Program-made: the position numbers and the translations under genes
Notes under the pieces: generated by a model
What the model was told of the DNA's origin: nothing
Seen by the model: the letters and a program-made list of their open reading frames with translations, nothing else
The model's database searches: none
Assembly (NCBI GenBank): GCA_012519705.1
Contig: JAAYPR010000041.1
Span: forward strand, 1 to 50,987
DNA: 50,987 nt
Reading direction: 5' to 3'
Source: Campylobacteraceae bacterium
GTDB lineage: Bacteria; Campylobacterota; Campylobacteria; Campylobacterales; Campylobacteraceae
Shown: positions 11,886 to 26,162 of the stretch, one piece after another
Layout: the number at the start of each line of letters is the position of its first letter
How positions within the stretch are numbered: position 1 is the first letter of the stretch

Positions 11886-11908
11886 ATTTCAAATTTAAAG
11901 GGGTGAAA

Positions 11909-12160
11909 ATGCAAACTACAACTTTACTATATAACAGTGAGTTTTTAAATAGTTTAAATGAAAGCCAGAGAGACATTATCAACAAAACAAAAGAGATAAT
12001 GGCAAACTGGATTAAAAAACATGAGACAGATGAGCCTTGCCTTATGAATGATGATGAAATCCGCCAAACGATACTTGAAGAGATAGAAAACTACAAAAAT
12101 GGCACAGCTAAAACTTATACAATGGAAGAGATGAAAAAAAGACATGGAATTTCAATATGA
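11909..12160 (+). CDS. Putative type II antitoxin
   Basis: 83 residues if started at the ATG 11909, placed 7 bases after an AAAGGGG ribosome-binding site; a GTG two codons earlier overlaps that site and is less likely. It is small, acidic and helical, with the C-terminal segment AKTYTMEEMKKRHGI typical of toxin-wrapping tails of RelB/Phd-type antitoxins. No DNA-binding fold is obvious by eye. The stop overlaps the toxin start (ATGA). The identity rests mainly on the adjacent RelE/ParE protein. Confidence 0.72.
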   Translation: MQTTTLLYNSEFLNSLNESQRDIINKTKEIMANWIKKHETDEPCLMNDDEIRQTILEEIENYKNGTAKTYTMEEMKKRHGISI

Positions 12161-12447
12161 TTGTTTTTTCAAGCAAATTTGACAAAAGCTTAGAAGAGAT
12201 AAGAGTCTACATTACATTAAAAGATGGCGAAACAAGATATGAAAACTTTGCAAATGAGCTGTTTAGAAGTATCAACAACATAGAATTTATGCCACGAAAA
12301 CACAGAAAAAATTTACAAGTAAATCAAGAAAATATAAGAGATTTGATTTTTAAAGGCTATACAGTGCCTTTTCAAATTCTGGAAAATGGCGATATTTTTA
12401 TAATCACCATTTTTAAACAGAACCAATGGGATGGAAAGATTAACTAA
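12157..12447 (+). CDS. RelE/ParE-superfamily toxin
   Basis: 96 residues, the usual size. The layout of the RelE/ParE fold is seen: an N-terminal strand and helices (FDKSLEEIRVYITLKDG, ANELFRSINNIEFMPRK), then NIRDLIFKGYTVPFQILENGDIFIITIFKQNQ, where RDLIFKGYTVPF corresponds to the conserved R-x-L-x-x-x-Y-x-V/I-x-F core. Such toxins cut ribosome-bound mRNA (RelE) or poison gyrase (ParE), and the sequence does not decide which. It overlaps the antitoxin by 4 bases. The convergent suhB-like gene ends 12 bases away. Confidence 0.8.
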   Translation: MIVFSSKFDKSLEEIRVYITLKDGETRYENFANELFRSINNIEFMPRKHRKNLQVNQENIRDLIFKGYTVPFQILENGDIFIITIFKQNQWDGKIN

Positions 12448-12458
12448 GAGAGATTTAG

Positions 12459-13229
12459 CTAGCCAAAAAGCCTCTCATTTAGGGCGTTATCAATGTATGA
12501 GTTTGTGAAAATATACATTGTATTATGTCCAAATTTACGTGATTTTCCATGTCCGCCTGCCTCTTCTAATATCAGCCAACCAGCACAAAAATCCCACTCA
12601 TTAATATTAAACTCAAAGTAAGCATCGCTATATCCAGCCGCTGTAAAACAAAGATCTATCGCTGCACTACCACTTCTTCTAATGCCTGCGATATGGTTAA
12701 TGATTTTATTAAAATACTCTAAATTTGGGTTTTCCACCGCTCTACTGTAAGGAAAACCGGTTGAGACGATAGCATTTTTAAGCTCTGTTGTTTTAGAAAC
12801 TGAAATTTTTTCGCCGTTTAAAAACGCACCCTGTCCTTTTATAGCGCTAAATTTCATCTTTAAAACCGGTAGTACTACAAGTCCTAAAACTCTCTCACCG
12901 TTAAATTTAAGCCCAACGCTGATGGAGTGAAGTGGGTAAGAGTGGATGAAATTTGTAGTTCCGTCAATTGGGTCAACCACCCAGCACCAAGGACTCTCAT
13001 CGCCCACAACGCCGTGTTCTTCGGTTAGAATTTGATGAGTTGGATAGTTTGTTTTGATGAAATTTATTATCATCTCATCTGATTTTTTATCTACTTCGGT
13101 TACGAAGTCTACACTACTACTTTTTGTCTCTATTTTAAAGCCACTTTTTCTAGCTTCAAGCTGATAGGCGGCAACAGTATCTAAAAACTCATCTAAATTC
13201 TTTAAAATTTCATTCAAATTCTCGTTCAT
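12459..13229 (-). CDS. Inositol-monophosphatase family protein (SuhB-like)
   Basis: 256 residues. Family motifs are intact: EEHGV (about 70-74), WVVDPIDGTTNFIHSYP (about 84-100) with the metal-binding Asp and the catalytic Thr, RRSGSAAIDLCFTAAG (about 184-199) and INEWDFCAGWLILEEAGG (about 210-227) with the last Asp ligand. It hydrolyses inositol-1-phosphate or related phosphomonoesters in a lithium-sensitive, Mg-dependent way, and some members act as ribosome-biogenesis factors. AAGGAG precedes the ATG. The second family member in the window (25299-26162) differs clearly and lies in a transport operon. Confidence 0.92.
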   Translation of the reverse strand: MNENLNEILKNLDEFLDTVAAYQLEARKSGFKIETKSSSVDFVTEVDKKSDEMIINFIKTNYPTHQILTEEHGVVGDESPWCWVVDPIDGTTNFIHSYPLHSISVGLKFNGERVLGLVVLPVLKMKFSAIKGQGAFLNGEKISVSKTTELKNAIVSTGFPYSRAVENPNLEYFNKIINHIAGIRRSGSAAIDLCFTAAGYSDAYFEFNINEWDFCAGWLILEEAGGHGKSRKFGHNTMYIFTNSYIDNALNERLFG

Positions 13230-13289: not shown

Positions 13290-14459
13290 TTATAGTTCAT
13301 CAAAAATTTCTATAACTCTATCCAAGACGCCTTGAGTTTTAGATATCAAAACACCGTAGTTTGTTATGGCTATATTTTTGTTTTTAGCGGTTTGTTGGCG
13401 GTTTAGCATCGTTTTTCTATTTAGCATACATCCGCCACAGTGGATTATAAGGCTAAACTCATCAATGTCGCCAAACTCTTTTCCACAAGTATAGGTTAAA
13501 TTTGGTTTAAAACCTAGATATTTTTCAAGAAGTTTTGGGATTTTTGTTCTTGCGATATCGCCTTCAACGTAGCGGTGAGAGCAAGCCTCGGCTATGAGAA
13601 TTTTATCATTTTCTTTTAGCCTATCAAGCATATTTGCACCATCAACCAACCCTTTTAAGTCGCCCTTTAGCCTTGCCATCAGTATAGAAAAAGTTGTGAT
13701 TTTAAGCTCTTTGGGGGAGGTTTTTACAACTTCTTGGATGTACTGTGAGTCAGCTACAATCAAATTTGGTTTTTTGCTAAAATTTGCTAAAAGTTCGTCT
13801 ATATTTGTATTTTGCGAAACAAAGGCGTGTGATTTTTTATCCAAAATATCCCTTAAAGCCTGAGTTTGAGGTAAAATCATCCTGCCTTTTGGAGCGGCTT
13901 CGTCAATTGGCGTTATCAAAACTACAAGCTCATTTTCGCCTAAAACCCCATCAAAAATTTCTCTTTTTTCACTTTTTTTATCAAAGATTTTTTTAATGTG
14001 AGTGTAAATTTCATCAACGCTATCTTTTAATAAATTTAAACTTACACTGTTTTCTAAGCTCAAATTTACTAAACTCTCATCAAATTTATTTATAACAAAG
14101 AGCGTTTCTATTTGCTTTTCTTTAAGTTTTTTAACTAGCGTAGTCTCTTGCTCGTTTAAAGCTTCGTTTTTCAAAACAACGATGGCTAAATCAACCCTAT
14201 CTATCTCGGTAACTGCTTTTTTAACTCTCTCTTTTCCAAGTTCGCTCTCATCATCAAGTCCAGCTGTGTCTATGAAAAGAACTGCCCCAACGCCCTCAAG
14301 CTCGTAAGCTTTTTTCACACTATCTGTTGTCGTGCCTTTAACGCTTGAGGTTATAGAGACACTCTCACCTACAAGTGCGTTTAAAAGTGTGGATTTACCG
14401 GCATTTGTAGAGCCGAAAATTCCTATAGTAAAACGCAAAGAATTTGGGGTTTTATTCAT
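13290..14459 (-). CDS. hydF: [FeFe]-hydrogenase maturation GTPase HydF
   Basis: 389 residues using the ATG at 14459, which has AAGGAAAG in front and yields the expected N-terminus MNKTPNSLRFTIGIFG; the frame is open 11 codons further. N-terminal GTPase domain: P-loop GSTNAGKST, DTAG, NKFD. The C-terminal FeS domain has the family ligands CSHRY...HCGGC (about 305-360). HydF is the scaffold that assembles the 2Fe subcluster made by HydE and HydG and delivers it to HydA in the cytoplasm. It is the last gene of the hydrogenase operon and overlaps hydE by 8 bases. Confidence 0.96.
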   Translation of the reverse strand: MNKTPNSLRFTIGIFGSTNAGKSTLLNALVGESVSITSSVKGTTTDSVKKAYELEGVGAVLFIDTAGLDDESELGKERVKKAVTEIDRVDLAIVVLKNEALNEQETTLVKKLKEKQIETLFVINKFDESLVNLSLENSVSLNLLKDSVDEIYTHIKKIFDKKSEKREIFDGVLGENELVVLITPIDEAAPKGRMILPQTQALRDILDKKSHAFVSQNTNIDELLANFSKKPNLIVADSQYIQEVVKTSPKELKITTFSILMARLKGDLKGLVDGANMLDRLKENDKILIAEACSHRYVEGDIARTKIPKLLEKYLGFKPNLTYTCGKEFGDIDEFSLIIHCGGCMLNRKTMLNRQQTAKNKNIAITNYGVLISKTQGVLDRVIEIFDEL

Positions 14460-15522
14460 AAACTTTCCTTTGTTTGTTTTCAAAAAATACACTATCTCCG
14501 TGGTTGTCTGAGATAGAAAAACCAGCTTTTAAAACCTCAGACGAGACTTCTAAAATTTGCTCTTTTAAAGCACAGTTTTGCGTAACTTTGTTTGGATAAA
14601 TTAGATAGTCTTTTCTATATTCATACTCAGCAACTGCGGGCATGACGACATTTGCACCGCTTTGCAAAGCCATTGTTCTGCCGTTTTGGCAAAGTGTTTC
14701 CATAGCAGTTGTTGCGGGGATGTTGATTTCTGGCATTAGAAGTCTGATAATCGCCATAGCTTTTAGTGAGAGTAAAAAACTATCAGTTTTGAAATTTGCT
14801 AATGGCGTGTTTTCACACGGGATAAAAGGTCCAACGCCTATCATATCAAAGTTTTGTTCTTTAAAATACAAAATATCTTTTGCTATCATTCTCTCATCTT
14901 GACAAGGAAACCCAACTATCATCCCGCTTCCCGTTTCATAGCCTAATTTTTGTAAATTTTCCAAAGCAAGAAAGCGGTTTTTATGGCTCATTTTTGGATG
15001 AAGTTTGCTGTATAAGTTGGCATCTGTTGTCTCTATACGAAGTAGATAACGATTTGCTCCTGCCTCTTTGTAAGCTTTATACTCATCAAAGCTTTTTTCA
15101 CCTAGGCTTAGTGTTACTCTAGCACCAAAGTTGTGAATGCTAGAGATTATCTCACACATCTCACTAGTGCTGTAAACTCTGCTCTCGCCAGATTGTAAAA
15201 CTATGGTTTTATAGCCTAAATTTACAGCTTCTTTAGCGGTAGAGAGAATTTGCTCTTTAGTGAGTTTGTATCTTTTAACATTTCTATTTTGTTTTCTTAG
15301 ACCGCAGTAAAAACAGCTATTTTTACAGTAGTTTGAAATTTCAATCAAAGCTTTTAGATGAACGCTCTCTTTGCTAAATTTAATCCTAGCTAAATTTGCA
15401 AACTCAAAAAGCTCGTTATCACAACTCTTGCTTTTTAAGATTTCAGTGCATTCATCAAGGCTTAGACTATGGGTTTCATAGGCTTTTTTTATAAGGTTAG
15501 AGATGTGCGTCTTTTCCGCCAT
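14452..15522 (-). CDS. hydE: [FeFe]-hydrogenase maturation radical SAM enzyme HydE
   Basis: 356 residues. The radical-SAM cysteines are in ISNYCKNSCFYCGLRKQN (C-x3-C-x2-C, about 66-75). The remaining TIM-barrel segments (TIVLQSGE, VTLSLGEKS, RYLLRIETT, SGMIVGFPCQ, IGVGPFIPCENTPL) fit HydE better than biotin synthase. HydE processes the Fe(CO)2(CN)cysteine synthon towards the azadithiolate-bridged subcluster. It overlaps hydG upstream by 26 bases and hydF downstream by 8, so the three maturases are translated together. Confidence 0.96.
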   Translation of the reverse strand: MAEKTHISNLIKKAYETHSLSLDECTEILKSKSCDNELFEFANLARIKFSKESVHLKALIEISNYCKNSCFYCGLRKQNRNVKRYKLTKEQILSTAKEAVNLGYKTIVLQSGESRVYSTSEMCEIISSIHNFGARVTLSLGEKSFDEYKAYKEAGANRYLLRIETTDANLYSKLHPKMSHKNRFLALENLQKLGYETGSGMIVGFPCQDERMIAKDILYFKEQNFDMIGVGPFIPCENTPLANFKTDSFLLSLKAMAIIRLLMPEINIPATTAMETLCQNGRTMALQSGANVVMPAVAEYEYRKDYLIYPNKVTQNCALKEQILEVSSEVLKAGFSISDNHGDSVFFENKQRKVYE

Positions 15523-16972
15523 TTTCTATTTCTTTTAGCATCTCTTCAACTTTTAGGGCAACTTTTGGCAAGTTTTCTTTTAGCATTCCAAGATATTTTG
15601 GGATGATGACATTTTCGCCTATTTCTTTAACTTCCGCACTTGCGTAGTCTCTAATGTACTCTTTGAAAGTTAAAATTCCATTTGGGATACAGAGGTATTT
15701 TATCGTTGCGTTTTTAGCTAGTGGCATGAAGTTTTCGCCAGTTCTGCCTTCTCTATAGCAACTCGTGCAAAATGACGGCAACCTGCCATCTTTGATGATG
15801 CTTAAAATAAACTCATCTATGCTTCTGTTATCGCCTATTTTAAACTGTTGGTTAGACAAATCATTTTTAGTTTTTGTTTGTGAGTATCCGCCAATGCCTA
15901 TGTTTGTTCCAGCATCGGTTTGGGAAATTCCACATTTTTTAAGTGCTATATCTCTAAGTTCTGGCTCTTCTCTTGCTGTTAGGATTGTTCCTGTAAATGG
16001 ACACATAAGCCTAATAATAGCGATGATTCTTAAAAAGTCCTCATCATTTACTAGATAAGAATTGTCGGTGCTACAGGTTGCTGAAGTATCTTTAATACGT
16101 GGAAAACTCATAGTATGAGCTGAAATTCCAAAGTAACGCTCCAAGCTATATGCATGACTTAGCATTGCTAAAACATCAAATCTATAGTCATAAAGCCCAA
16201 GCAAAATACCAAGTGCCACGTCTTCAAGCCCAGCATTTAGCCCTCTATGAAGTGCAAAAAGTCTCCACTCATACTGTCCTTTTAGGGTGTGTTGCGGATG
16301 GACTTTTTCGTAAGTTTCTCTATGATAAGTTTCTTGAAAGACTTGATATGTGCCAATTCCTTCGTCTTTTATCGCTTTGTATTCATACTCAAACATCGGG
16401 GCAGCGTTGATATTTGCCCTTCTTATCTCGCTTTTATCCTTTTTAACGCTATAAATTTCTCTAACACTTTGTGCTATAAATTTATAATCACTCTTTGGAT
16501 GTTCGCCATAAACAGCTATCAAACGCTTCTGCCCACTATCTAAAAGTGCTTCTACTTCACTTTTTATCTCATCATTTTTTAGGATTTTTTTGACAAGTGA
16601 GCTATTTGAAGCTTTAAAGCCACAATACTCACAGTCATTGACACAAGGGCTAGCGATATAAAGTGGCGAGAAAAGAACTATCCTATTTCCATAAACTTCT
16701 TCTTTGATATAAGTAGCAGCTTTGAAAATTTCCTCATCTAGTTCTTTGTTTTTGTTGTTTAGTAAAACAGCAGTATCTTCAAGACTTAGCATCGTGCCCG
16801 TCGTGGCGTTTGCTTTTGCCTTTTCTATGATAGATAAAACTCTTTCTTTACTTGGGTTTTCTGTTGATTTGATAAGATTATGAATCAAATCCTCATCAAC
16901 GAAGTTTTCCCATTTGCACTCTTTTTCCCACTTTTTAATCTCTGCTAACCTATCTTGTGTCCATCCCATCAT
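15497..16972 (-). CDS. hydG: [FeFe]-hydrogenase maturation tyrosine lyase HydG
   Basis: 491 residues. The radical-SAM cysteines are in SPCVNDCEYCGFKAS (about 108-122). The C-terminal motif FCTSCYREGRTGENF (about 405-420) is the second FeS-cluster site specific to HydG and separates it from ThiH. HydG cleaves tyrosine to p-cresol, CO and cyanide and builds the organometallic synthon. Two adjacent ATGs (16972 and 16969) follow AAAAGGATAA; either could be used. It lies 9 bases after the cytochrome b gene. Confidence 0.96.
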   Translation of the reverse strand: MMGWTQDRLAEIKKWEKECKWENFVDEDLIHNLIKSTENPSKERVLSIIEKAKANATTGTMLSLEDTAVLLNNKNKELDEEIFKAATYIKEEVYGNRIVLFSPLYIASPCVNDCEYCGFKASNSSLVKKILKNDEIKSEVEALLDSGQKRLIAVYGEHPKSDYKFIAQSVREIYSVKKDKSEIRRANINAAPMFEYEYKAIKDEGIGTYQVFQETYHRETYEKVHPQHTLKGQYEWRLFALHRGLNAGLEDVALGILLGLYDYRFDVLAMLSHAYSLERYFGISAHTMSFPRIKDTSATCSTDNSYLVNDEDFLRIIAIIRLMCPFTGTILTAREEPELRDIALKKCGISQTDAGTNIGIGGYSQTKTKNDLSNQQFKIGDNRSIDEFILSIIKDGRLPSFCTSCYREGRTGENFMPLAKNATIKYLCIPNGILTFKEYIRDYASAEVKEIGENVIIPKYLGMLKENLPKVALKVEEMLKEIENGGKDAHL

Positions 16973-16981
16973 TTTATCCTT

Positions 16982-17635
16982 TTACTTTTTTATCTCTACA
17001 AGGTCGTTTTCAACCCATTTTGGAGAGTGCTCTTTAGCACCTTCTAGTGAAACTTCACCATTTCCAAACATCGCTTTGAAATCTTCCATATTTAAAAGTG
17101 CCATTGGGAAATGTGCACATACAGCAAGTACTGTGGTAATTATCGAGCCCCAAACGTGGAAGTTAAACATATAAACGATAGTCGTTTTTCCAACAACCGG
17201 AGCTAGAGCGTAAAGTACCCAGCCTGTTACGATAAGTGCAAATATCATAAAGATAAAAAATAGATATGTTAGTTTTTGTCCAGCGTTAAATCTACCTTGT
17301 GGTGCAACCTCTTCTGGTCCAAAGTTTATACCAAGAATTTTCTTTGGATAGCCACCAAAGTTTTTAAACCAAGCAAATGTATCTCTGTCCCAGATAAGTA
17401 AATTTCTTAGCATTAAAGCAAATCTATCTAAATTTAGTATTGCAAAACCAAAGAAATTCGCAGTAAAAACTACAGCTACGTAAATGTGTAAATCCATCCA
17501 AAACTTAACACTTGACTCATCTATCCAACCAAAGTATATGATGATACCACTAAAAGCAAGTATCATCCAAGTGATTAAATTTACATTGTGAAACATTCTT
17601 TCGCTAAAAGGAAATTTTAAAACTTTATCATGCAT
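16982..17635 (-). CDS. Hydrogenase-associated di-heme cytochrome b membrane subunit
   Basis: 217 residues with four hydrophobic helices (about 22-40, 48-70, 122-145, 158-180). Candidate heme-ligating histidines lie in RMFHNVN, MDLHIYV, NFHVWG and CAHFPM, the arrangement of FdnI/PhsC/HyaC-type cytochromes b. It most likely anchors the periplasmic [FeFe] hydrogenase and passes electrons to or from the quinone pool. It has a good AGGAG site and overlaps hydB by 8 bases. Operon position between the structural and maturation genes supports the role. Confidence 0.88.
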   Translation of the reverse strand: MHDKVLKFPFSERMFHNVNLITWMILAFSGIIIYFGWIDESSVKFWMDLHIYVAVVFTANFFGFAILNLDRFALMLRNLLIWDRDTFAWFKNFGGYPKKILGINFGPEEVAPQGRFNAGQKLTYLFFIFMIFALIVTGWVLYALAPVVGKTTIVYMFNFHVWGSIITTVLAVCAHFPMALLNMEDFKAMFGNGEVSLEGAKEHSPKWVENDLVEIKK

Positions 17636-17969
17636 GACTTGCTCCTAATGCTAAATTTGTTCTATCTACATAGACGTGTGTGTGTAAAAGCTCTTTTGCC
17701 ACTTCGCCCATAGGTGCTGTTTTTAAGTCTTCATAGACTTTTAAAGCACTTGGGTTTTGATGAGACGCTGTTAAGTTTACTTTTTGAAGTCTTTTGTCGT
17801 CTTTATACAGACCTTCTTGGCGAAGTGCTATGTATGACTTTCTTTTTTTAACTATATCTGTTAAAGCGTATCCGCTGATTGCTATAGCAGATACCCCAAC
17901 TCCAGCAACTTTTAAAAAATCTCTTCTACTAAATATAGAACTTACTTTTTTCTCAACATATTTTGCCAT
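17628..17969 (-). CDS. hydB: [FeFe]-hydrogenase small subunit with Tat signal
   Basis: 113 residues. A twin-arginine signal (SRRDFLKVAG at 14-23, then a hydrophobic stretch AISGYAL) leads into the small iron-hydrogenase subunit (YIALRQEGLYKDDKRL, ASHQNPSALKVYED). As in Desulfovibrio, this subunit carries the export signal and wraps the large subunit, so the pair is co-exported, folded, to the periplasm. It starts with AAGGAGAAAAAA in front of the ATG and lies 12 bases after hydA. Confidence 0.93.
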   Translation of the reverse strand: MAKYVEKKVSSIFSRRDFLKVAGVGVSAIAISGYALTDIVKKRKSYIALRQEGLYKDDKRLQKVNLTASHQNPSALKVYEDLKTAPMGEVAKELLHTHVYVDRTNLALGASHA

Positions 17970-17981
17970 TTTTTTCTCCTT

Positions 17982-19334
17982 CTATGCTCTTACTGGAAGT
18001 GGTAAAAGTGGGTGTAGCCACGATGTTCCCATCGTTCTAACAGGTTGTCCGCCACCATTTACACAGCCACCTGGGCAGTTCATAACTTCTATAAAGTGAT
18101 ATTTGTTTTTATCACTTACAAGTTCTTTTGCTATTTTATCTATGTTTTTAGAAGCACCATTTACAACAGCAACTTTAACATCTATGACTTTTCCATCATA
18201 CTCTTTTAGAGGAACTGGGATAGTTGCTTCAACAAAGTCTTTATCATACCCTCTAACTGGTGTTAAGTCAGGGTTTTTAAGCTCTGTTCCACTTAGTATA
18301 AAGTAAGCCGTTCTTAAAGCTGCTTCCATAACTCCGCCACTATTTCCAAAGATAGTTGCCCCGCCTGTATAGACGTTCATAGTTTCGTTTTCATACTCAT
18401 CTGACATCTCAAGTGGGTTTATACCTTTTTTCTTAAGTAAAGTTGCGATATCTCTTGCTGTTAAAACAGCGTCTATGTCTTGGAAGCTTGGTGTATCGCT
18501 TGGAATTTCACCATTTCTTACAAGATATTCCCATGCTGAGTTAAACTCAGGTCTACTAGCCTCAAAGATTTTAGCTGTACACGGAGTAATAGACACCATA
18601 TAAACATCTCTTGGGTCAACGTTCCATACAAATTTTGGTGCCCAAGTTTTTGCTAATGCCCCGCCCATTTGGATAGGCGACTTAGCACCTGAAATGTGTG
18701 GTAAAAGCTCTGGGTGGAAAATTTCAGCATTTCTTATCCACGCAGGACAGCAGCTTGTAAAGTGCGGGAAAGGATGTTTTGCAACATGTGCTAACTCTTC
18801 ACTTCTCTCACCTAAAAGCCAATATTTTACTTTATGTATAAACTCTGTTCCTTCTTCTAAGATAGTTTGATCTGCTGCAAAGTTTACATCATACATATGA
18901 AAGCCAGCTTTTACAAAAGCGTTATACATTTTATTTATAGTAACACTTCCTGGCTCTGCTCCAAACTCCTCTGCTAAAGCAACTCTAACAGCTGGTGCTG
19001 GGTGAGCTACAACAAAAGCTTTTGGATCATCAAGCTTTTCCATAACCATATCCACAAAACTCATCTGCTCAATCGCCCCAAACGGACAGTTTGTTAAACA
19101 TTGTCCACAGGTAACGCATCTGTTATCATCAATCGCATGAGCAACTCCTAGTGTGCCTTTTATCGCATCTGTTGGACAAAACGCACTACAGGTATCACAG
19201 CCTGTACATCTATCTTGGTCTATTTTGATGATGCCTCTTAACTCACCTTTTCTATAAGTTCCTTCAAACTCAGCCTCTGTACCCCAAGCATCTTTTGGCG
19301 GTGCAAAAGTTTTAACACTTGAAACTGTACCCAT
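17982..19334 (-). CDS. hydA: [FeFe]-hydrogenase catalytic large subunit
   Basis: 450 residues. Two [4Fe-4S] ferredoxin motifs lie at Cys43/46/49/53 and Cys73/76/79/83. The H-cluster motifs follow: TSCCPAW (193-199), TPCTAKIFE (250-258), GGATIFGNSGGVMEAALR (324-341) with the proton-path Glu, and MNCPGGCVNGGGQP (418-431). Thr250 stands where Met is usual in the MPC motif. Compared with Desulfovibrio HydA as I recall it, there are extra segments near 170-188 and 265-284. It has no signal peptide of its own; export would depend on HydB. Function: reversible H2 oxidation, likely uptake into the quinone pool through the cytochrome b. It is first in the operon, with a strong AGGAGG site. Confidence 0.96.
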   Translation of the reverse strand: MGTVSSVKTFAPPKDAWGTEAEFEGTYRKGELRGIIKIDQDRCTGCDTCSAFCPTDAIKGTLGVAHAIDDNRCVTCGQCLTNCPFGAIEQMSFVDMVMEKLDDPKAFVVAHPAPAVRVALAEEFGAEPGSVTINKMYNAFVKAGFHMYDVNFAADQTILEEGTEFIHKVKYWLLGERSEELAHVAKHPFPHFTSCCPAWIRNAEIFHPELLPHISGAKSPIQMGGALAKTWAPKFVWNVDPRDVYMVSITPCTAKIFEASRPEFNSAWEYLVRNGEIPSDTPSFQDIDAVLTARDIATLLKKKGINPLEMSDEYENETMNVYTGGATIFGNSGGVMEAALRTAYFILSGTELKNPDLTPVRGYDKDFVEATIPVPLKEYDGKVIDVKVAVVNGASKNIDKIAKELVSDKNKYHFIEVMNCPGGCVNGGGQPVRTMGTSWLHPLLPLPVRA

Positions 19335-19719
19335 TATTTCCCTCCTAAGTGATAATAGTATCTAAAAAATATTATCTCTAAATACTATTTTTTGCACGTA
19401 ATTTTACCTTAAGAATAGTAATAATATGCTGAATTTATACATTTGTTAAGTAAATTTTTTATAGTTCAAGATGATGGTGTAAAGATATGGCATTAAACTG
19501 CACATTATTATTCTAAATATAGCGGCAATATGCATAAAATTATTACCAATACTTATTTAAATTTAAAGAAATGGTGTTGCAAAAAGAAATATTTTATTTT
19601 AACACTGCTATAAAAATACCTTGAAAGTGTCGATATATCGGCTTTTGTAAAAAAATGTTTCCATTTTGTAATCAAAGTTAGATAGCATTCGGTTCAAAAA
19701 TTTTCAGCAAAGCGGAGTT
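19335..19719. promoter_or_regulatory. Divergent control region between hydrogenase and transporter operons
   Basis: 385 gene-free bases serve both operons. Near hydA, an inverted repeat AATAGTAT (19354-19361) / ATACTATT (19382-19389) spaced by 20 bases recurs partly as GAATAGTAATA at about 19412-19422, a possible operator set. Near the permease is a perfect CGATATATCG palindrome at about 19629-19638. No -10 box is unambiguous here. No small ORF or RNA gene was recognised. Confidence 0.4.
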
Positions 19720-21528
19720 ATGAATCAGAAATTTAAGATGAATCCATTTTCTTTATATCGTACTAAAATTTCTATGAAAAACCCAGCAACTATTTTGGGT
19801 TTGGTTTTAGTAGCATTTTTTATATATACTATTTTGGCGCCGGTTATAGGCTTGCTTATTTCATCGGTACAGGTTGGAGTTGGGGAGAGTTTTCGCACGG
19901 GTGGCGAAGTTGGCGACTTTACAACTTACTATTTGGAAAGAGTTTTTACCTCAAGAGTTTCTAGTATTATCTTTTGGGAACCACTTTTAAACACACTTGG
20001 CTTGGCTACTGTAACTATTTTTCTTTCTTTACTTTTTGGTGTTCCTTTAGCGTTCTTGCTAGTTAGGACAGATCTTCCTCATAGAGCATGGTTTGCAACT
20101 GCTCTTATCATTCCTTATATGATTCCTTCTTGGACGTTTGCACTTGCTTGGAAAACTATTTTTAAAAACAGACAAGTTGGTGGAGGACTTGGATGGATGG
20201 AGAACTTAGGTTGGACTCCGCCAGATTGGGTTGCTTATGGGTTTTTGCCAATCGTTGTAATCTTTACTCTAAATTTAACCCCTTTTGTAATCTTACTAGT
20301 TTCAAATGCTATTAAAAACATACCAGAAGATTTAGACGAAGTTGCAAGAACTATGGGCATACCTGCCAAAAGAAGAGTGATAAGCATTTTCTTACCACTT
20401 CTTAAGCCTGCCATCATCTCTGCTGCGACGCTGATAGTAGCCAAAGTTATAGGCGACTTTGGTGTAACTTATACTTTAGGAAAGCCTGTTAAATTTCAAG
20501 TTTTAGCAACAACTCTTTATCAAGAGTATGGAGATCCTAGTGGGCGTGGTGTGGCTGCTGTTATAGCACTTGCTATGGTATTTATCGGAGCACTTTCACT
20601 CATGGTAGATTTCTTTTTCTTAAAGAACCTGAAAAGATTTACTACTATGGCTGGTAAGAGTTTTTCAACAAAACTAACAGAGCTAAAATCAACCAAAAAT
20701 CTTATGCTAACTTTAGTTATTGGGTATTTGATTATCTCTGTTGTTTTCCCATTGTTTGTGTTGATACTTTCAACCATCATGAAAACCCCTGGTGTTTTCA
20801 CGCTTAGTAACTTTACGATTGATTATTGGATTGGACAGAACTTACCTTTTGAAAGCTTTAAAGAAGGTATTTTACTGAACCCTAGAACTTGGGACGCTGC
20901 AAGAAACACCATTTTATTTGTTGGAGTAGCTTCTGTTTGTACAGGCGTACTTGGAATGCTTGTTGGTTATGTAACAGTTAGATCACCTTGGAAATGGCTA
21001 GGTGCTACGCTTAAGACATTAACTTTTATGCCTTACTTAGTTCCTGGAATCGCGTTCAGTGTGGCTTTAATAACAGTTTTTGCAGTTAGTAGAGGACCAA
21101 TTCCTGCACTTTATGGAACGTCAGCGATTTTAATTTTAGCGATGATACTTGATGAGATGCCGTTTGCTTCAAGGGCTGGGGTTTCTGCTATGTCGCAGAT
21201 GGGAAAAGACGCTGAAGATGCTGCGAAGGTTATAGGTGCTAGGTGGACTAAAAGAATGTATAGAATAGTTCTGCCTATCCAAAGATCAGCTCTTGCTTCA
21301 GCGATTTTGCTTCCATTTGTATCAGGAGTTCAAACGCTATCATTAGTTATAGTTCTAGCAACCCCTGGAACACAGCTTTTAACAACGCTTTCAATGGATT
21401 TGATTGATAATAGCTATGACCAAATGGCAAACGGAGTTACGGTGCTAATTTGTGCTATCGCACTATTTGGAACTTGGGCTGCTAAGAAGCTATTAAAAGC
21501 TGATTTGGCAAGTGGAATGGGCGGTTAA
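19720..21528 (+). CDS. ABC transporter fused permease (FbpB/AfuB-like)
   Basis: 602 residues, two MetI-type permease halves in one chain with about 12 hydrophobic segments. Each half carries an EAA-loop-like stretch, ARTMGIPAKRRVISIFLPLLKPA (first half) and AKVIGARWTKRMYRIVLPIQRSA (second half), that docks the ATPase. This is the FbpB/AfuB/SfuB family. The first gene of the operon, it has GCGGAG in front of the ATG; a second ATG six codons on is possible. The cargo is better inferred from the phosphatase genes downstream than from the family name, which is usually iron. Confidence 0.9.
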   Translation: MNQKFKMNPFSLYRTKISMKNPATILGLVLVAFFIYTILAPVIGLLISSVQVGVGESFRTGGEVGDFTTYYLERVFTSRVSSIIFWEPLLNTLGLATVTIFLSLLFGVPLAFLLVRTDLPHRAWFATALIIPYMIPSWTFALAWKTIFKNRQVGGGLGWMENLGWTPPDWVAYGFLPIVVIFTLNLTPFVILLVSNAIKNIPEDLDEVARTMGIPAKRRVISIFLPLLKPAIISAATLIVAKVIGDFGVTYTLGKPVKFQVLATTLYQEYGDPSGRGVAAVIALAMVFIGALSLMVDFFFLKNLKRFTTMAGKSFSTKLTELKSTKNLMLTLVIGYLIISVVFPLFVLILSTIMKTPGVFTLSNFTIDYWIGQNLPFESFKEGILLNPRTWDAARNTILFVGVASVCTGVLGMLVGYVTVRSPWKWLGATLKTLTFMPYLVPGIAFSVALITVFAVSRGPIPALYGTSAILILAMILDEMPFASRAGVSAMSQMGKDAEDAAKVIGARWTKRMYRIVLPIQRSALASAILLPFVSGVQTLSLVIVLATPGTQLLTTLSMDLIDNSYDQMANGVTVLICAIALFGTWAAKKLLKADLASGMGG

Positions 21529-21541
21529 GAAAAGGAAAAAA

Positions 21542-22633
21542 ATGAGTGAAATAGAATTAAAAAATATTTATAAAGTCTATCCAGGTATGAAAAAACCTGC
21601 GGTAAATAATGTTAGTCTTAGTATAGAAAAAGGTGAGTTTCTCTGTTTGCTAGGGCCTTCAGGGTGTGGTAAATCAACAATGTTAAGGATGATTGCAGGT
21701 CTTGAAAACCCAACAAAAGGAACTATAAAGATAAAAGATAAGATTGTTGATGATACAGAAAACTCTCTTCATGTAATAACTGAAAAAAGAGACTTAGGCG
21801 TTGTTTTTCAAAACTACGCACTTTGGCCTCATATGAAAGTTGCAGAAAATATAGCTTTTGGACCAGAGATTAAAAAATTCTCAAAAGAAGAGACAAAAGA
21901 GATTGTTGATAGTGTGTTAGAAAAACTCTCAATCACAAAATATGCTGACAGATACCCGTCTGAACTTTCAGGTGGGCAACAGCAACGTGTTGCAATCGCT
22001 AGAACACTTGCTACAAAGTGCGATATTATGCTTCTTGATGAGCCGTTATCAAACCTTGATGCTAGGCTTAGACTTGAGATGAGAGCTGAGTTTCAAAGAA
22101 TTCACAGAGACACTAATGCTACTATGATTTTCGTAACTCACGACCAATGGGAAGCTATGACTTTGGCAACTAGAATTGTTGTTATGAATGAGTCTGTAAT
22201 CCAGCAAATTGGAACGCCGATGGAAATTTATGAAAAACCTGTAAACAGATTTGTAGCGGAGTTCATGGGCTCACCTCCCCTAAATATCATAGAGATGAGT
22301 ATAGAAGATGATCCAAAAAGACAGCTAGAAGCTTGGCTTAAAATGCATAATCTCAAAGGAGCTTCTGCTGGAGTAAGACCTGAGAATATGAACTTCACAA
22401 GTAGAGATGAGATGCCAAAAGACGCTCTTGGTGTGGATTTTCAAGTATCAGGACTTTTGCCAACTGGTGGGTCGTGGATAATAGAAGTAACTGATGGAGT
22501 AAATCACTATTTTGGTGTAACGACTAGAGCACCAGACCTTACTATCGGTCAGAAAGTTACAGCTTGGGGAAAACCTGAGCATGTGCTTGTGTTTGATAAA
22601 AATACAAACAGAGTTGAAACAAATTTTAATTAA
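21542..22633 (+). CDS. ABC transporter ATP-binding subunit (FbpC/AfuC-like)
   Basis: 363 residues from ATG 21542, which has AAAGGAAAA upstream; the frame is open 10 codons earlier, inside the permease gene. Walker A GPSGCGKST (about 36-44), Q-loop in VVFQNYALWPHM, signature LSGGQQQRVAIAR, Walker B MLLDEPLSNLDA and the switch His in VTHDQWEA are all intact. A C-terminal TOBE-like regulatory domain (about 240-363) follows. It energises import through the upstream permease and begins 13 bases after it. Confidence 0.94.
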   Translation: MSEIELKNIYKVYPGMKKPAVNNVSLSIEKGEFLCLLGPSGCGKSTMLRMIAGLENPTKGTIKIKDKIVDDTENSLHVITEKRDLGVVFQNYALWPHMKVAENIAFGPEIKKFSKEETKEIVDSVLEKLSITKYADRYPSELSGGQQQRVAIARTLATKCDIMLLDEPLSNLDARLRLEMRAEFQRIHRDTNATMIFVTHDQWEAMTLATRIVVMNESVIQQIGTPMEIYEKPVNRFVAEFMGSPPLNIIEMSIEDDPKRQLEAWLKMHNLKGASAGVRPENMNFTSRDEMPKDALGVDFQVSGLLPTGGSWIIEVTDGVNHYFGVTTRAPDLTIGQKVTAWGKPEHVLVFDKNTNRVETNFN

Positions 22634-22644
22634 AGGAGTATGTT

Positions 22645-23772
22645 ATGAGAAAAAGTTTTAAAAGTTTAAGTGCTATAAGTTTAGCAGTTGCTTTAAGTGT
22701 TGGTTCAGTTTTTGCTGCAGATGTGACAAAATCACAAATCGATGCTGATTTTAATCTTGAAAAATTGATTGAAGCTGCGAAGCAAGAGGGCTCTTTAACA
22801 GTTTATGATAACTCATCTGCTGTTAAAAAAATGGCAGAAGCATTTGAAGCAAAATACGGTATAAAAACAACTGGTGTTAAAGTTGGAACCGAAGATGCTT
22901 TAGGAAAAATCATAGAAGAAGGTAAGTCTAAAAACGTTCAAGGTGATGTTATAGCGTTTCAAGATTTAGCGGCTTTAACAAATATTTTACTACCAGAAGG
23001 GTATGTTTATAGCTGGGTTCCTGCTGATTTACAAAAAGACATTGATGAGACGCAACAAAACCCTCTAACCCTTGTAAACGATCCAAACTTTTGGTCATAC
23101 AATACAGAAGTTTATGATAGTTGCCCTATTTCAAACCTATGGGAACTAACTGATAAAAAATGGAAAAATAAAGTTGCTTTAGAAGACCCTGAATCAGCGG
23201 TAAAAATCCTTGACTGGTTCTCACAAATGGAGCAATTTGGTGAAGATGAGATGAGAGAGGCATATAAAGAGCATTTTGGTAAAGATTACAAAGGTAAATC
23301 AGCAAGTAAAGAGTGGGTAGATATGCTTGCGAAAAATAACCCTATCTTAACAAACTCAAACGAAGATATCTCTGCTGCTGTTGGTGCACCTAACCAAAAA
23401 GAACCGCCAGTTGGACTTATGGCTTCTTCAAAATTTAGAAATATTGAAACAAAAGGCTATAAACACGGCGTTTGTGAGGGTCTTAAACCATGGGTTGGAA
23501 TCGCAGCACCAAAAAATATAGTTATAGCTACAAACTCTAAAAACCAAAATGCAGCTAAACTTTTCGTTCACTTTGCAATGACAGAAGAGGGTATTAAACC
23601 ACAGATTGGAGATGGAAAATACTCAGCGAATTTATCTATTGTACAGCCAGATGATCCATCAAATTCAGGCAAACATAGAGAAAATGTATTTTTCTTTAAA
23701 TCAGAAGGTGCTAGCAACGACTGGAAAAATAGAGAAATTGTAAAAGATGATTGGAGAATTAGTCATAGATAA
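22645..23772 (+). CDS. Periplasmic substrate-binding protein of the AfuA/FbpA-like family
   Basis: 375 residues with a signal peptide (MRKSFKSLSAISLAVALSVGSVFA, cleavage about residue 24) and a two-lobed binding fold (LTVYDNSSAVKKMAEAFEAKYGIKTTGVKVG, GDVIAFQDLAAL, FWSYNTEVYD, KVALEDPES, NIVIATNSKNQNAAKLFVHFAMTEEG). The paired tyrosines that hold ferric iron in classical FbpA are not seen at the expected place in the second lobe. The ligand is probably an anionic, phosphorylated compound, as for AfuA, a relative first annotated as iron-binding and later shown to bind hexose phosphates. AAAGGAG lies 8 bases before the ATG, and the gene directly follows the ATPase. Confidence 0.85.
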   Translation: MRKSFKSLSAISLAVALSVGSVFAADVTKSQIDADFNLEKLIEAAKQEGSLTVYDNSSAVKKMAEAFEAKYGIKTTGVKVGTEDALGKIIEEGKSKNVQGDVIAFQDLAALTNILLPEGYVYSWVPADLQKDIDETQQNPLTLVNDPNFWSYNTEVYDSCPISNLWELTDKKWKNKVALEDPESAVKILDWFSQMEQFGEDEMREAYKEHFGKDYKGKSASKEWVDMLAKNNPILTNSNEDISAAVGAPNQKEPPVGLMASSKFRNIETKGYKHGVCEGLKPWVGIAAPKNIVIATNSKNQNAAKLFVHFAMTEEGIKPQIGDGKYSANLSIVQPDDPSNSGKHRENVFFFKSEGASNDWKNREIVKDDWRISHR

Positions 23773-23782
23773 GGGTAGTTTA

Positions 23783-24541
23783 ATGAGTCATAACTTAAAA
23801 AAACCAAAAGGTCTTATTTTAGACTTTGGCGGGGTTGTTGTAGAGACTAAGGCACTAAGCGGTTGGGAAGGTGAAGTTGTAAAATCTATACAAAAAATTG
23901 TTGATATTGACAGCGAGAGAATTTACAATGACTTAGTAGCAGGACAAACAGCTGCAAAGCTATGGAGAAACGCGATGAGTCGTCCTAAATTTCCGCCAGA
24001 ACTTACTCATGAAGAGTTTGTTTTAGAGTTTATAGCGGCTGACTGGGGAGACGCGGCTAGAGAGGCACTAAGAAGCCATGTAAGCGAAATTTCATATCAA
24101 GTTGTATATCTAGCTGAAAGCAGAGTAACAAGAAATGGTATGGAAGAGCTTCTTCTTTGGTGCGAAAAAGAAAATATTCCTGTGGCTATCTCTTCAAACG
24201 CATTATGTGGGCAGATGCATAGGGACTATTTAATAGAGCATAAACTAGACCACTATTTTAAAGCAGAGATTTACTCAGATGAGGCAGGGGTTAGAAAACC
24301 AAACCCTTTGCTTGTCCAAAAAGCAGCAGATGCAATTGGCATAGATGTTGAAGAGTGTTGGTATGTAGGCGACCACTACGATAGAGACGTGCTTTGTGGT
24401 AAAAGAGCAAATGCTGGAGCATCAATTCTTATGAAAGTGCCAAATGCTGCAACTAGACCGTTTAAAGTTTATGTAGAGCCTGATTTAATAGTTCAAGATC
24501 CAGTTGAACTACTAGAGGCTTTAAAAAACGCGAAGGGATAG
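23783..24541 (+). CDS. HAD-superfamily phosphatase, copy 1
   Basis: 252 residues from ATG 23783, which has AAGGG upstream and matches the start of its twin; an ATG 36 bases earlier lies inside the binding-protein gene. HAD motifs: I, LILDFGGVVVE, with the nucleophile Asp and Gly in place of the second Asp, as in YihX and the epoxide-hydrolase N-terminal phosphatase; II, ISSNA; III, VRKPNP; IV, VGDHYDRD. Subclass IA helical cap at about 25-110. It likely removes phosphate from a small sugar phosphate. No signal peptide, so it acts in the cytoplasm on the imported compound. About three-quarters identical by eye to the next gene. Confidence 0.87.
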   Translation: MSHNLKKPKGLILDFGGVVVETKALSGWEGEVVKSIQKIVDIDSERIYNDLVAGQTAAKLWRNAMSRPKFPPELTHEEFVLEFIAADWGDAAREALRSHVSEISYQVVYLAESRVTRNGMEELLLWCEKENIPVAISSNALCGQMHRDYLIEHKLDHYFKAEIYSDEAGVRKPNPLLVQKAADAIGIDVEECWYVGDHYDRDVLCGKRANAGASILMKVPNAATRPFKVYVEPDLIVQDPVELLEALKNAKG

Positions 24542-24543
24542 CT

Positions 24544-25302
24544 ATGAGCTTAATAAAACCAAAAGGTCTTATTTTGGACTTTGGCGGAGTTATTGTAGAG
24601 ACTAAATCACGAAGTGGCTGGGAAGATGAGGTTGTAAGCCTTATACAAGAAATTGTTGATGTTGATAGTGAGAGAATTTATACTGACTTGGTAGCAGGAC
24701 AAACAGCTGCAAAGCTATGGAGAAATGCAGTGGCTCGTACTAGATTTCCAAGAGAGCATAGCCATGAAGAGTTTATTTTGGATTTTATAGCGGCTGACTG
24801 GGGAGACGCAGCTAGAGAGGCGTTAAAAAGCCATGTAAGCGAAATTTGCTATCAAATTTCATATCTGTCTGACATGAGAATAGTAAGAGATGGCATGGAA
24901 GAGCTACTTATTTGGTGCAAGGAGAACAGTATTCCTGTAGTTATCGCTTCAAACGCACTTTCTGGGCAGATGCGTAGAGACTACTTAGTAGAGCATAAAC
25001 TAGACGGCTATTTTAAAGATCAAATTTACTCAGATGAAGCAGGGGTTAGAAAACCAAACCCCTTGCTTGTTACAAAAGCAGCTGATGCGATAGGCGTAGA
25101 TGCGAGTGAGTGCTGGTATGTAGGTGACCACTATGATAGAGATGTGCTTTGCGGCAAAAGAGCAAATGCTGGAGCATCAGTTCTTATGGAAGTGCCAAAC
25201 CTTGCAGCTAGACCTTTTAAAGTCTATGTTGAGCCTGATTTGGTAGTTGAAGACCCAACCCAGCTATTAGAGGCTTTAAAAAGAAGAGTGGAGCAGGAAT
25301 GA
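24544..25302 (+). CDS. HAD-superfamily phosphatase, copy 2
   Basis: 252 residues, a tandem duplicate of the preceding gene, with the same motifs (LILDFGGVIVE, IASNA, VRKPNP, VGDHYDRD). The C-terminal half, including CGKRANAGAS and PFKVYVEPDL, is almost unchanged. Differences gather in the cap (for example ARTRFPREHSHEEF against SRPKFPPELTHEEF) and in the loop after motif II, positions that usually set substrate choice. The spacing after copy 1 is 2 bases, with AAGGGA as ribosome-binding site. Conservation of both active sites argues against decay. Confidence 0.87.
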   Translation: MSLIKPKGLILDFGGVIVETKSRSGWEDEVVSLIQEIVDVDSERIYTDLVAGQTAAKLWRNAVARTRFPREHSHEEFILDFIAADWGDAAREALKSHVSEICYQISYLSDMRIVRDGMEELLIWCKENSIPVVIASNALSGQMRRDYLVEHKLDGYFKDQIYSDEAGVRKPNPLLVTKAADAIGVDASECWYVGDHYDRDVLCGKRANAGASVLMEVPNLAARPFKVYVEPDLVVEDPTQLLEALKRRVEQE

Positions 25303-26162
25303 GTGAAATAATAAATGAAAATTTAAATCCAAAAGAGTTAAGAAAAATAGCTGAAGAAGCTGTGCTTTGCGTGGGGGATTATCTAAGAGAGGTTTTTCGC
25401 TCAAATGTAGAGTTTGAACAAAAAAGAGATCAACACGACCTCGTAACTCTGCACGATAAAGAGTGTGAGAGAAGAATCATAGCTCTTATTAAAAAATACA
25501 ATCCTAGCGGGCTAATCATCGGCGAAGAGTCAGGTACTTTAGAAGGCGACTCAAAAATCACTTGGTATATAGACCCGATTGATGGAACGTCAAATTTCGT
25601 GCAAGGACTAGCGTTTTTCTGTGCGGTTGTTGGGGTTGCGGTAGATGATAAAATGGTAGCTGGTGCGGTGTATGACCCTATGGCGGATAATCTTTTCTCA
25701 GCAGATGATGAAAAAGCTTATCTAAACGGCGAAATTTTAAAAACAAAAGACGCCCTGCCACCTAAAGTTGCTACGCTAATAACAGGCTATCCAACAGCAC
25801 TTGATATAGAAACCGATGGCAAAGAGTTAGCACTTGAAATTTTCCATGAGTTTGCTATGGAGTTCTCATCTGTTAGAAGAACCGGCTCAGGAGCTTTAAG
25901 TCTGTGTCACGTTGCTGCTGGCTGGACTGATAGTGCATTTGGCTCATATGTAAGCCCTTGGGACATAAGTGCACCTATGCAGATAGTCAGAATGGCGGGT
26001 GGAACTTATTTACCGTTTGACTATGATGACAAAGATATAAACGACCAGTATACTGCTGGCTATATAGCTTTTGGACCAAAAGGAAACTACCCTGTTTTGG
26101 AAGTTGTTGCGGAGAAAATCATTAAATCTCGTGGTGGCAAGGGTAGGATTTTTAAAAACTAA
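25299..26162 (+). CDS. Inositol-monophosphatase family phosphatase in the transport operon
   Basis: 287 residues. Motifs: GEESG (about 77-81), WYIDPIDGTSNFVQG (about 91-105), RRTGSGALSLCHVAAG (about 205-220) and SPWDISAPMQIVRMAGG (about 231-247). The usual metal-ligand and catalytic residues are present, so the enzyme should be active on a phosphomonoester such as inositol phosphate, fructose-1,6-bisphosphate or a relative. The start overlaps the second HAD gene by 4 bases (ATGA). It is the last gene of the operon, followed by a strong terminator. It is not a close copy of the SuhB-like gene at 12459-13229. Confidence 0.88.
   Translation: MSEIINENLNPKELRKIAEEAVLCVGDYLREVFRSNVEFEQKRDQHDLVTLHDKECERRIIALIKKYNPSGLIIGEESGTLEGDSKITWYIDPIDGTSNFVQGLAFFCAVVGVAVDDKMVAGAVYDPMADNLFSADDEKAYLNGEILKTKDALPPKVATLITGYPTALDIETDGKELALEIFHEFAMEFSSVRRTGSGALSLCHVAAGWTDSAFGSYVSPWDISAPMQIVRMAGGTYLPFDYDDKDINDQYTAGYIAFGPKGNYPVLEVVAEKIIKSRGGKGRIFKN

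Follow-up and report, generated by a model that had tools for sequence, protein, structure and literature searches.

Hydrogen respiration in the well-studied species of Campylobacter is nickel-dependent. What, then, would an [FeFe]-hydrogenase do in this group? The question is raised by a 50,987-nucleotide stretch (the window; contig C21, GenBank accession no. JAAYPR010000041.1) of a Campylobacteraceae bacterium whose genome (G000; assembly GCA_012519705.1) spans 1.72 Mb in 52 contigs and is an estimated 99 percent complete. On its minus strand, from position 19334 to 13290, the window carries hydL, hydS, a cytochrome b gene, hydG, hydE and hydF, in that order and with all six open reading frames (ORFs) intact. 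We consider it very probable that the operon product is a three-subunit, membrane-anchored periplasmic [FeFe]-hydrogenase that oxidizes H2 and feeds menaquinone. Its location, electron wiring and maturation set are predicted from the encoded proteins; its direction, quinone partner, working conditions and actual activity we infer.

Structural subunits and operon layout

The large subunit, HydL, matches PF02906 (E 1e-68), the single such match in the genome, and HydA of Desulfovibrio desulfuricans (DdHydA; chain 8rtg_A, E 7.5e-97). Its best match is TIGR02512 (E 1.3e-116), with 389.6 bits against a curated cut-off of 405.95. HydL contains two ferredoxin-type [4Fe-4S] motifs (C43..C53 and C73..C83) and the H-cluster motifs L1 to L3, namely, TSCCP (C195 and C196), TPCTAK (C252) and EVMNCPGGCVNGGGQP (C420 and C424), with four out of four H-cluster cysteines present, as in group A enzymes. 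The small subunit, HydS, is homologous to D. desulfuricans HydB (DdHydB) and has a PF02256 (Fe_hyd_SSU) domain (E 2e-13) and a twin-arginine translocation (Tat) signal, SRRDFLKVAGV, that scores above the TIGR01409 cut-off, the combination found in heterodimeric periplasmic group A enzymes. Both arginines of the signal are invariant in 92/92 homologues (conservation was read from roughly 90 homologues ranging from Campylobacterota to Archaeoglobaceae). From these features, the hydL-hydS product is predicted to be a heterodimeric group A [FeFe]-hydrogenase of the periplasmic type, exported through Tat.

The cytochrome matches PF01292 (E 7e-15) and is homologous to FdnI of Escherichia coli formate dehydrogenase N (1kqf_C; E 1.5e-9). 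Its putative heme ligands are His 16, 50 and 160, present in 90/90 homologues, and His 175, present in 89/90; with its four conserved histidines, this neighboring di-heme cytochrome b would place the enzyme in the cytochrome b-linked HydABC type. Next to an H-cluster cysteine of HydL, threonine 250 (window positions 18585-18587) stands in place of the canonical methionine of MPCxxK. In enzymes of solved structure, the equivalent methionine is near the diiron site. TPC occurs at this second motif in 20/20 HydL sequences of the main Campylobacterales clade and in 8/11 Sutterellaceae sequences, and MPC occurs in almost all of the remaining ones.

The features of the locus, in window coordinates, are as follows:
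17982..19334, minus strand: hydL (hydA), [FeFe]-hydrogenase large subunit, 450 amino acids
17628..17969, minus strand: hydS (hydB), small subunit bearing a Tat signal at its N terminus
16982..17635, minus strand: hydC-like di-heme cytochrome b gene, presumed quinone-reducing membrane anchor
15497..16972, minus strand: hydG, radical S-adenosylmethionine (SAM) tyrosine lyase maturase
14452..15522, minus strand: hydE, radical SAM maturase
13290..14492, minus strand: hydF, scaffold GTPase maturase
19335..19719, minus strand: intergenic region 5' of hydL, shared with a divergent ATP-binding cassette (ABC) transporter operon

With the hydF start as listed, the successive spacings are 12, -8, 9, -26 and -41 bp. 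The same gene order is found in other Campylobacterales genomes, which excludes a chance arrangement. A ribosome-binding site (TAGGAGG) precedes hydL, and a sigma-70-like match lies upstream at 19449-19421, placed by its match to the consensus; the intergenic region holds 30 promoter-like matches versus 21 +/- 4 in shuffled sequences.

Maturases and the H-protein gap

The HydEFG set is complete. HydE (TIGR03956; 344.7 bits, cut-off 254.6), HydF (TIGR03918; 460.8 bits, cut-off 325.6) and HydG (TIGR03955; 421.8 bits, cut-off 312) all exceed their equivalog cut-offs and have the expected domains and iron-sulfur motifs: CxxxCxxC plus CxxC-x22-C in HydG and, in HydF, GTPase, dimer and tetramer domains with a conserved CxH...HCxxC. 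The true start of hydF is probably the in-frame ATG at 14459, the listed GTG at 14492 being too early, because an AAAGG-like site precedes the ATG and the resulting protein fits the orthologues better; hydE and hydF would then overlap by about 8 bp. The original prediction of a six-gene [FeFe] operon with overlapping genes and three maturases, periplasmic by its Tat-borne small subunit and tied to the membrane by a di-heme cytochrome b, was thus borne out.

The dithiomethylamine (DTMA) bridge of the H-cluster has been made in vitro from aminomethyl-lipoyl-H-protein (PMC11736057). We searched for H-protein (PF01597) in 20 Campylobacterota genomes, several of them closed: 16 carrying the operon, 2 carrying remnants and 2 having neither. 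None had a match above the cut-off (0/20, including 0/16 operon-bearing genomes), and G000 had no match at all; the same family was detected in 13 of 14 control genomes. Lipoyl synthase (lipA) was above its cut-off in 1 of the 16 operon-bearing Campylobacterota, G289, in a match containing stops. Reading at the DNA level was confined to strong Biotin_lipoyl matches, weaker ones in roughly 400-residue frames being set aside; the strong matches that were read proved to be biotinyl domains (AMKM/AMKI), save for one lipoyl domain in G289.

Full-length H-protein matches were also missing from all eight Sutterellaceae genomes searched (0/8; partial matches in two, E 3e-4 and 7e-4) and were present in four Sporomusaceae and in Paraferrimonas. 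Among 79 HydF-positive genomes of the Selenomonas phylum (Bacillota; completeness not given), a clear H-protein, meaning a match with E below 1e-15, was present in 61 and missing from 18, which rules out the absence as a trait of Campylobacterota only. The absence is uniform in the Campylobacterales clade but not unique to the phylum. The gap may be explained by a substitute carrier, by an in vitro model that is incomplete or not universal, or by inactive enzymes. Our partial coverage of the literature turned up no paper raising it for Campylobacterota. The main Campylobacterales clade, which carries TPC at the second H-cluster motif, is also the clade lacking H-protein.

Distribution of [FeFe] and [NiFe] hydrogenases

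The [FeFe] enzyme had been proposed to stand in for the [NiFe] HydABCD of other campylobacters. A search of G000 contradicted this: contig C52 carries a complete [NiFe] uptake operon of the HydABCD type, with a Tat-signal small subunit, a large subunit (PF00374, E 1.4e-210), a cytochrome b and a maturation protease. The [FeFe] enzyme is therefore an addition in this genome. Across the family, the distribution of the [FeFe] operon is patchy, with matches in 15/153 genomes (two being remnants) and 4/12 genera; 2/14 genomes of the window's own genus and, phylum-wide, 16/397 genomes and 7/68 genera had a match. Part of this distribution had been published before our survey (PMC4794192).

[NiFe]-family matches were present in 150/153 family genomes. 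The [NiFe] uptake large subunit is missing from three Campylobacter genomes that carry the [FeFe] enzyme: closed genome G067 has zero [NiFe]-family matches, and a distant match alone (E 7e-14), at the level that would be expected of complex I or Hyf-type subunits, was seen in G031 and in G066, each of them closed and with two [FeFe] copies. This is the pattern expected if the [FeFe] enzyme can assume the uptake role. When genomes at least 90 percent complete are compared, the uptake large subunit was absent from 3/12 with intact [FeFe] genes versus 1/122 others (P = 0.002 by Fisher's test), a value that overstates the evidence because G031 and G066 are close relatives and the data amount to about two events.

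The second [FeFe] gene of G031 (L106:4771-6279) and G066 (L107:3973-5481) encodes fused large and small subunits of about 500 residues and lies about 5 kb from the periplasmic operon; the fused enzyme is probably cytoplasmic, as it has no Tat signal. G006, a genome of the window's genus (1.8 Mb, 99 percent complete), has neither an [FeFe] nor a PF00374 [NiFe] match and is apparently a Campylobacter-type genome without hydrogenase.

Phylogeny and history

Relatives were taken from one scan of genome contigs, so close ones may be left out. The six-gene order occurs in Campylobacteraceae and in termite-gut Helicobacteraceae-like genomes; Sulfurospirillum has the same order with one gene inserted between hydG and hydE. 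Sutterellaceae have the hydL-hydS-cytochrome b trio followed by hydF and usually hydE, with no hydG alongside. Archaeoglobaceae, Sporomusa, Syntrophales and Paraferrimonas have the trio either by itself or with maturase genes that are scattered.

The closest kin of HydL are other Campylobacterales and, next, gut Sutterellaceae. The HydL tree unites the main Campylobacterales group in one clade (support 83/67), sister to Sutterellaceae (100/99); with HydL, HydS and cytochrome b combined, the corresponding values are 97/98 and 100/100. DdHydA falls far outside both groups. Strictly vertical inheritance, named at the outset as the alternative to transfer, does not hold across the whole family: a single clade for the Genome Taxonomy Database (GTDB) family is rejected for the structural genes (P = 5e-61 by the approximately unbiased [AU] test), because Campylobacteraceae from termite guts fall with a different family. 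For the maturases, a single family clade is not rejected (P = 0.11), and those of the three Campylobacter genera form one clade (100/100).

Two deletion remnants, in two genera, record losses. In G071 (L109:8744-9300), the first 145 residues of HydL are joined directly to a piece of the HydF end, and in G147 (L116:1000-2800) a damaged HydL is followed by the HydF end. The G071 remnant and the intact operon of G075 seem to share a locus, as the sizes of the flanking ORFs match. No flanking genes are shared between G000 and any relative, even within the genus (two species), and no relative has a common insertion site with G000. Carriage on a plasmid was rejected (best plasmid homologues at most 40 percent identical), and the base composition bears no sign of recent transfer (GC content of 36.6 percent in the operon versus 35.7 percent in the surroundings). 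We read the operon as old in Campylobacterales, frequently lost and at times transferred between families, with structural genes exchanged between Campylobacterales and Sutterellaceae.

G289 carries a distinct Campylobacterales hydrogenase lineage (L112:5221-11317) in the order hydL, hydS, cytochrome b, a 467-amino-acid frame, hydF (split into two frames) and hydE; this hydrogenase groups with Thermodesulfobacteria and Desulfurobacterium sequences.

Comparison with known systems

The operon is already known in kind and in Campylobacter: C. rectus and C. ureolyticus carry this gene set in identical order (Ross et al. 2016, PMC4794192), and the large subunits of Sulfurospirillum cavolei, C. rectus, C. 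ureolyticus and C. hyointestinalis fall in one clade (PMC4794192). The S. cavolei cluster likewise runs from large, small and membrane subunits to HydG, HydE and HydF, but it has an aspartate ammonia-lyase gene between hydG and hydE, unlike the Campylobacter operons. As far as could be searched, the H-protein gap, the deletion remnants and the [NiFe]-free genomes are additions to this picture.

Wolinella and Campylobacter [NiFe] HydABC(D) shares the presumed physiological role, export through Tat and wiring by a di-heme cytochrome b, whereas the catalytic subunit and active site have no kinship with those of the [FeFe] enzyme and the genes occupy a separate locus (C52 in G000). Periplasmic HydAB of Desulfovibrio (1HFE, 8RTG) has no cytochrome b subunit and has soluble cytochrome c3 as its electron partner. 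It resembles the window's enzyme in being a heterodimer with an exported small subunit, two accessory [4Fe-4S] clusters and the same H-domain, and it differs in having MPC where the window's HydL has TPC at the second H-cluster motif and in its distant place in the tree. The homologous trio HydA2B2C2 of Sporomusa ovata (SOV_3c02090-SOV_3c02080) was detected by mass spectrometry, together with a [NiFe] enzyme, in a membrane band with H2:triphenyltetrazolium chloride (TTC) activity (PMC9430772). It shares the periplasmic [FeFe] large subunit, the Tat small subunit, the di-heme cytochrome b and a coexisting [NiFe] uptake enzyme. Its HydL is about 52 percent identical to that of the window, maturase genes were not found within 10 kb of its hydL, and its genome encodes H-protein.

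Proposed function and alternatives

In the mechanism we propose, HydG, HydE and HydF would act in the cytoplasm, assembling the [2Fe] part of the H-cluster, and HydL and HydS, folded and loaded, would then be exported through Tat on the HydS signal. H2 would be split at the H-cluster in the periplasm, and the two ferredoxin-type [4Fe-4S] clusters would relay the electrons to the cytochrome b, which would reduce menaquinone as in FdnGHI or [NiFe] HydABC. With fumarate, nitrate or sulfur compounds as acceptors, this would raise the proton motive force. In G000, the enzyme would work alongside the [NiFe] uptake hydrogenase, probably as its fast, low-affinity, oxygen-sensitive and nickel-free partner at high H2 and under strict anoxia. 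The retention of the hydL-hydS-cytochrome b trio from Campylobacterota to Archaeoglobaceae supports an H2-oxidizing, quinone-linked complex, as do the homologies to DdHydA, DdHydB and FdnI, the presence of the S. ovata trio in a hydrogenase-active membrane band and the three genomes that keep [FeFe] without the [NiFe] uptake large subunit.

The enzyme could also run mainly in reverse, drawing on the menaquinol pool or a periplasmic donor to dispose of surplus electrons as H2 in fermentation-like growth. [FeFe]-hydrogenases are often biased toward H2 formation. Such a bias has been stated for this cluster (PMC4794192), and uptake in G000 is already covered by the [NiFe] enzyme. We nevertheless think this direction unlikely, since FdnI-type cytochromes are typical of quinone-reducing complexes and the [FeFe] enzyme is kept in three genomes without a [NiFe] uptake enzyme. 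The potential of menaquinol (about -75 mV) is also too high: at ordinary H2 pressure, proton reduction is impossible without reverse electron transport.

Another challenge to the uptake role is that the operon may now yield no active enzyme, the H-cluster bridge being unable to form without H-protein. Several observations weigh against H2 oxidation in this way: H-protein is absent from 16/16 and lipA from 15/16 operon-bearing Campylobacterota, with strong lipoyl/biotin-domain matches biotinyl but for the one in G289; in the one set of Campylobacterota data found, which is negative, hydA of the S. cavolei NBRC strain is frameshifted, being transcribed and not found in the proteome (PMC6242987); the remnants in G071 and G147 mean that the enzyme is dispensable; and no positive activity measurement for this clade was found in the literature. 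Against inactivity, the six genes are intact in 16 of the Campylobacterales operons read, from several families, and the active-site residues and heme ligands are kept, implying purifying selection; a clear H-protein is also absent from about one-fifth of HydF-positive Bacillota. We judge inactivity highly improbable. Recent gain from a sulfate-reducing anaerobe such as Desulfovibrio, the origin first suggested for these genes, is hardly credible. The patchy distribution and the flanking genes that differ even between two species of one genus would suit it, but the nearest relatives of HydL are Campylobacterales and next Sutterellaceae sequences rather than DdHydA or those of Syntrophales and Deltaproteobacteria, and the single maturase clade, the matching GC content and the deletion scars, which indicate loss from an older state, all argue against it.

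A bolder combined proposal is tentative, and we lean somewhat against it: that Campylobacterota and the gut Sutterellaceae sharing their clade build the DTMA bridge without H-protein (and nearly all tested Campylobacterota without lipoate synthesis) via another aminomethyl carrier, and that in some Campylobacter the [NiFe] uptake hydrogenase has given way entirely to this nickel-free enzyme. If any H-protein-free species has an active enzyme, H-protein is not the universal donor of the H-cluster bridge, which makes the operon a valuable natural test of the H-protein requirement. An [FeFe]-positive species without [NiFe] uptake would show that nickel-independent H2 respiration is possible in Campylobacter.

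Neighboring genes

The divergent operon (window 19720-26162, plus strand) encodes a PhnU2-like ABC permease, an ATPase, a solute-binding protein, two haloacid dehalogenase (HAD) hydrolases and an inositol-monophosphatase-family protein, and it looks like a system for taking up a phosphate ester or phosphonate and hydrolyzing it. Another gene of the inositol-monophosphatase family is found at 12459-13229. A pair of small genes (11903-12447, plus strand), the second encoding a ParE-type toxin family protein (PF05016), is likely a toxin-antitoxin module.

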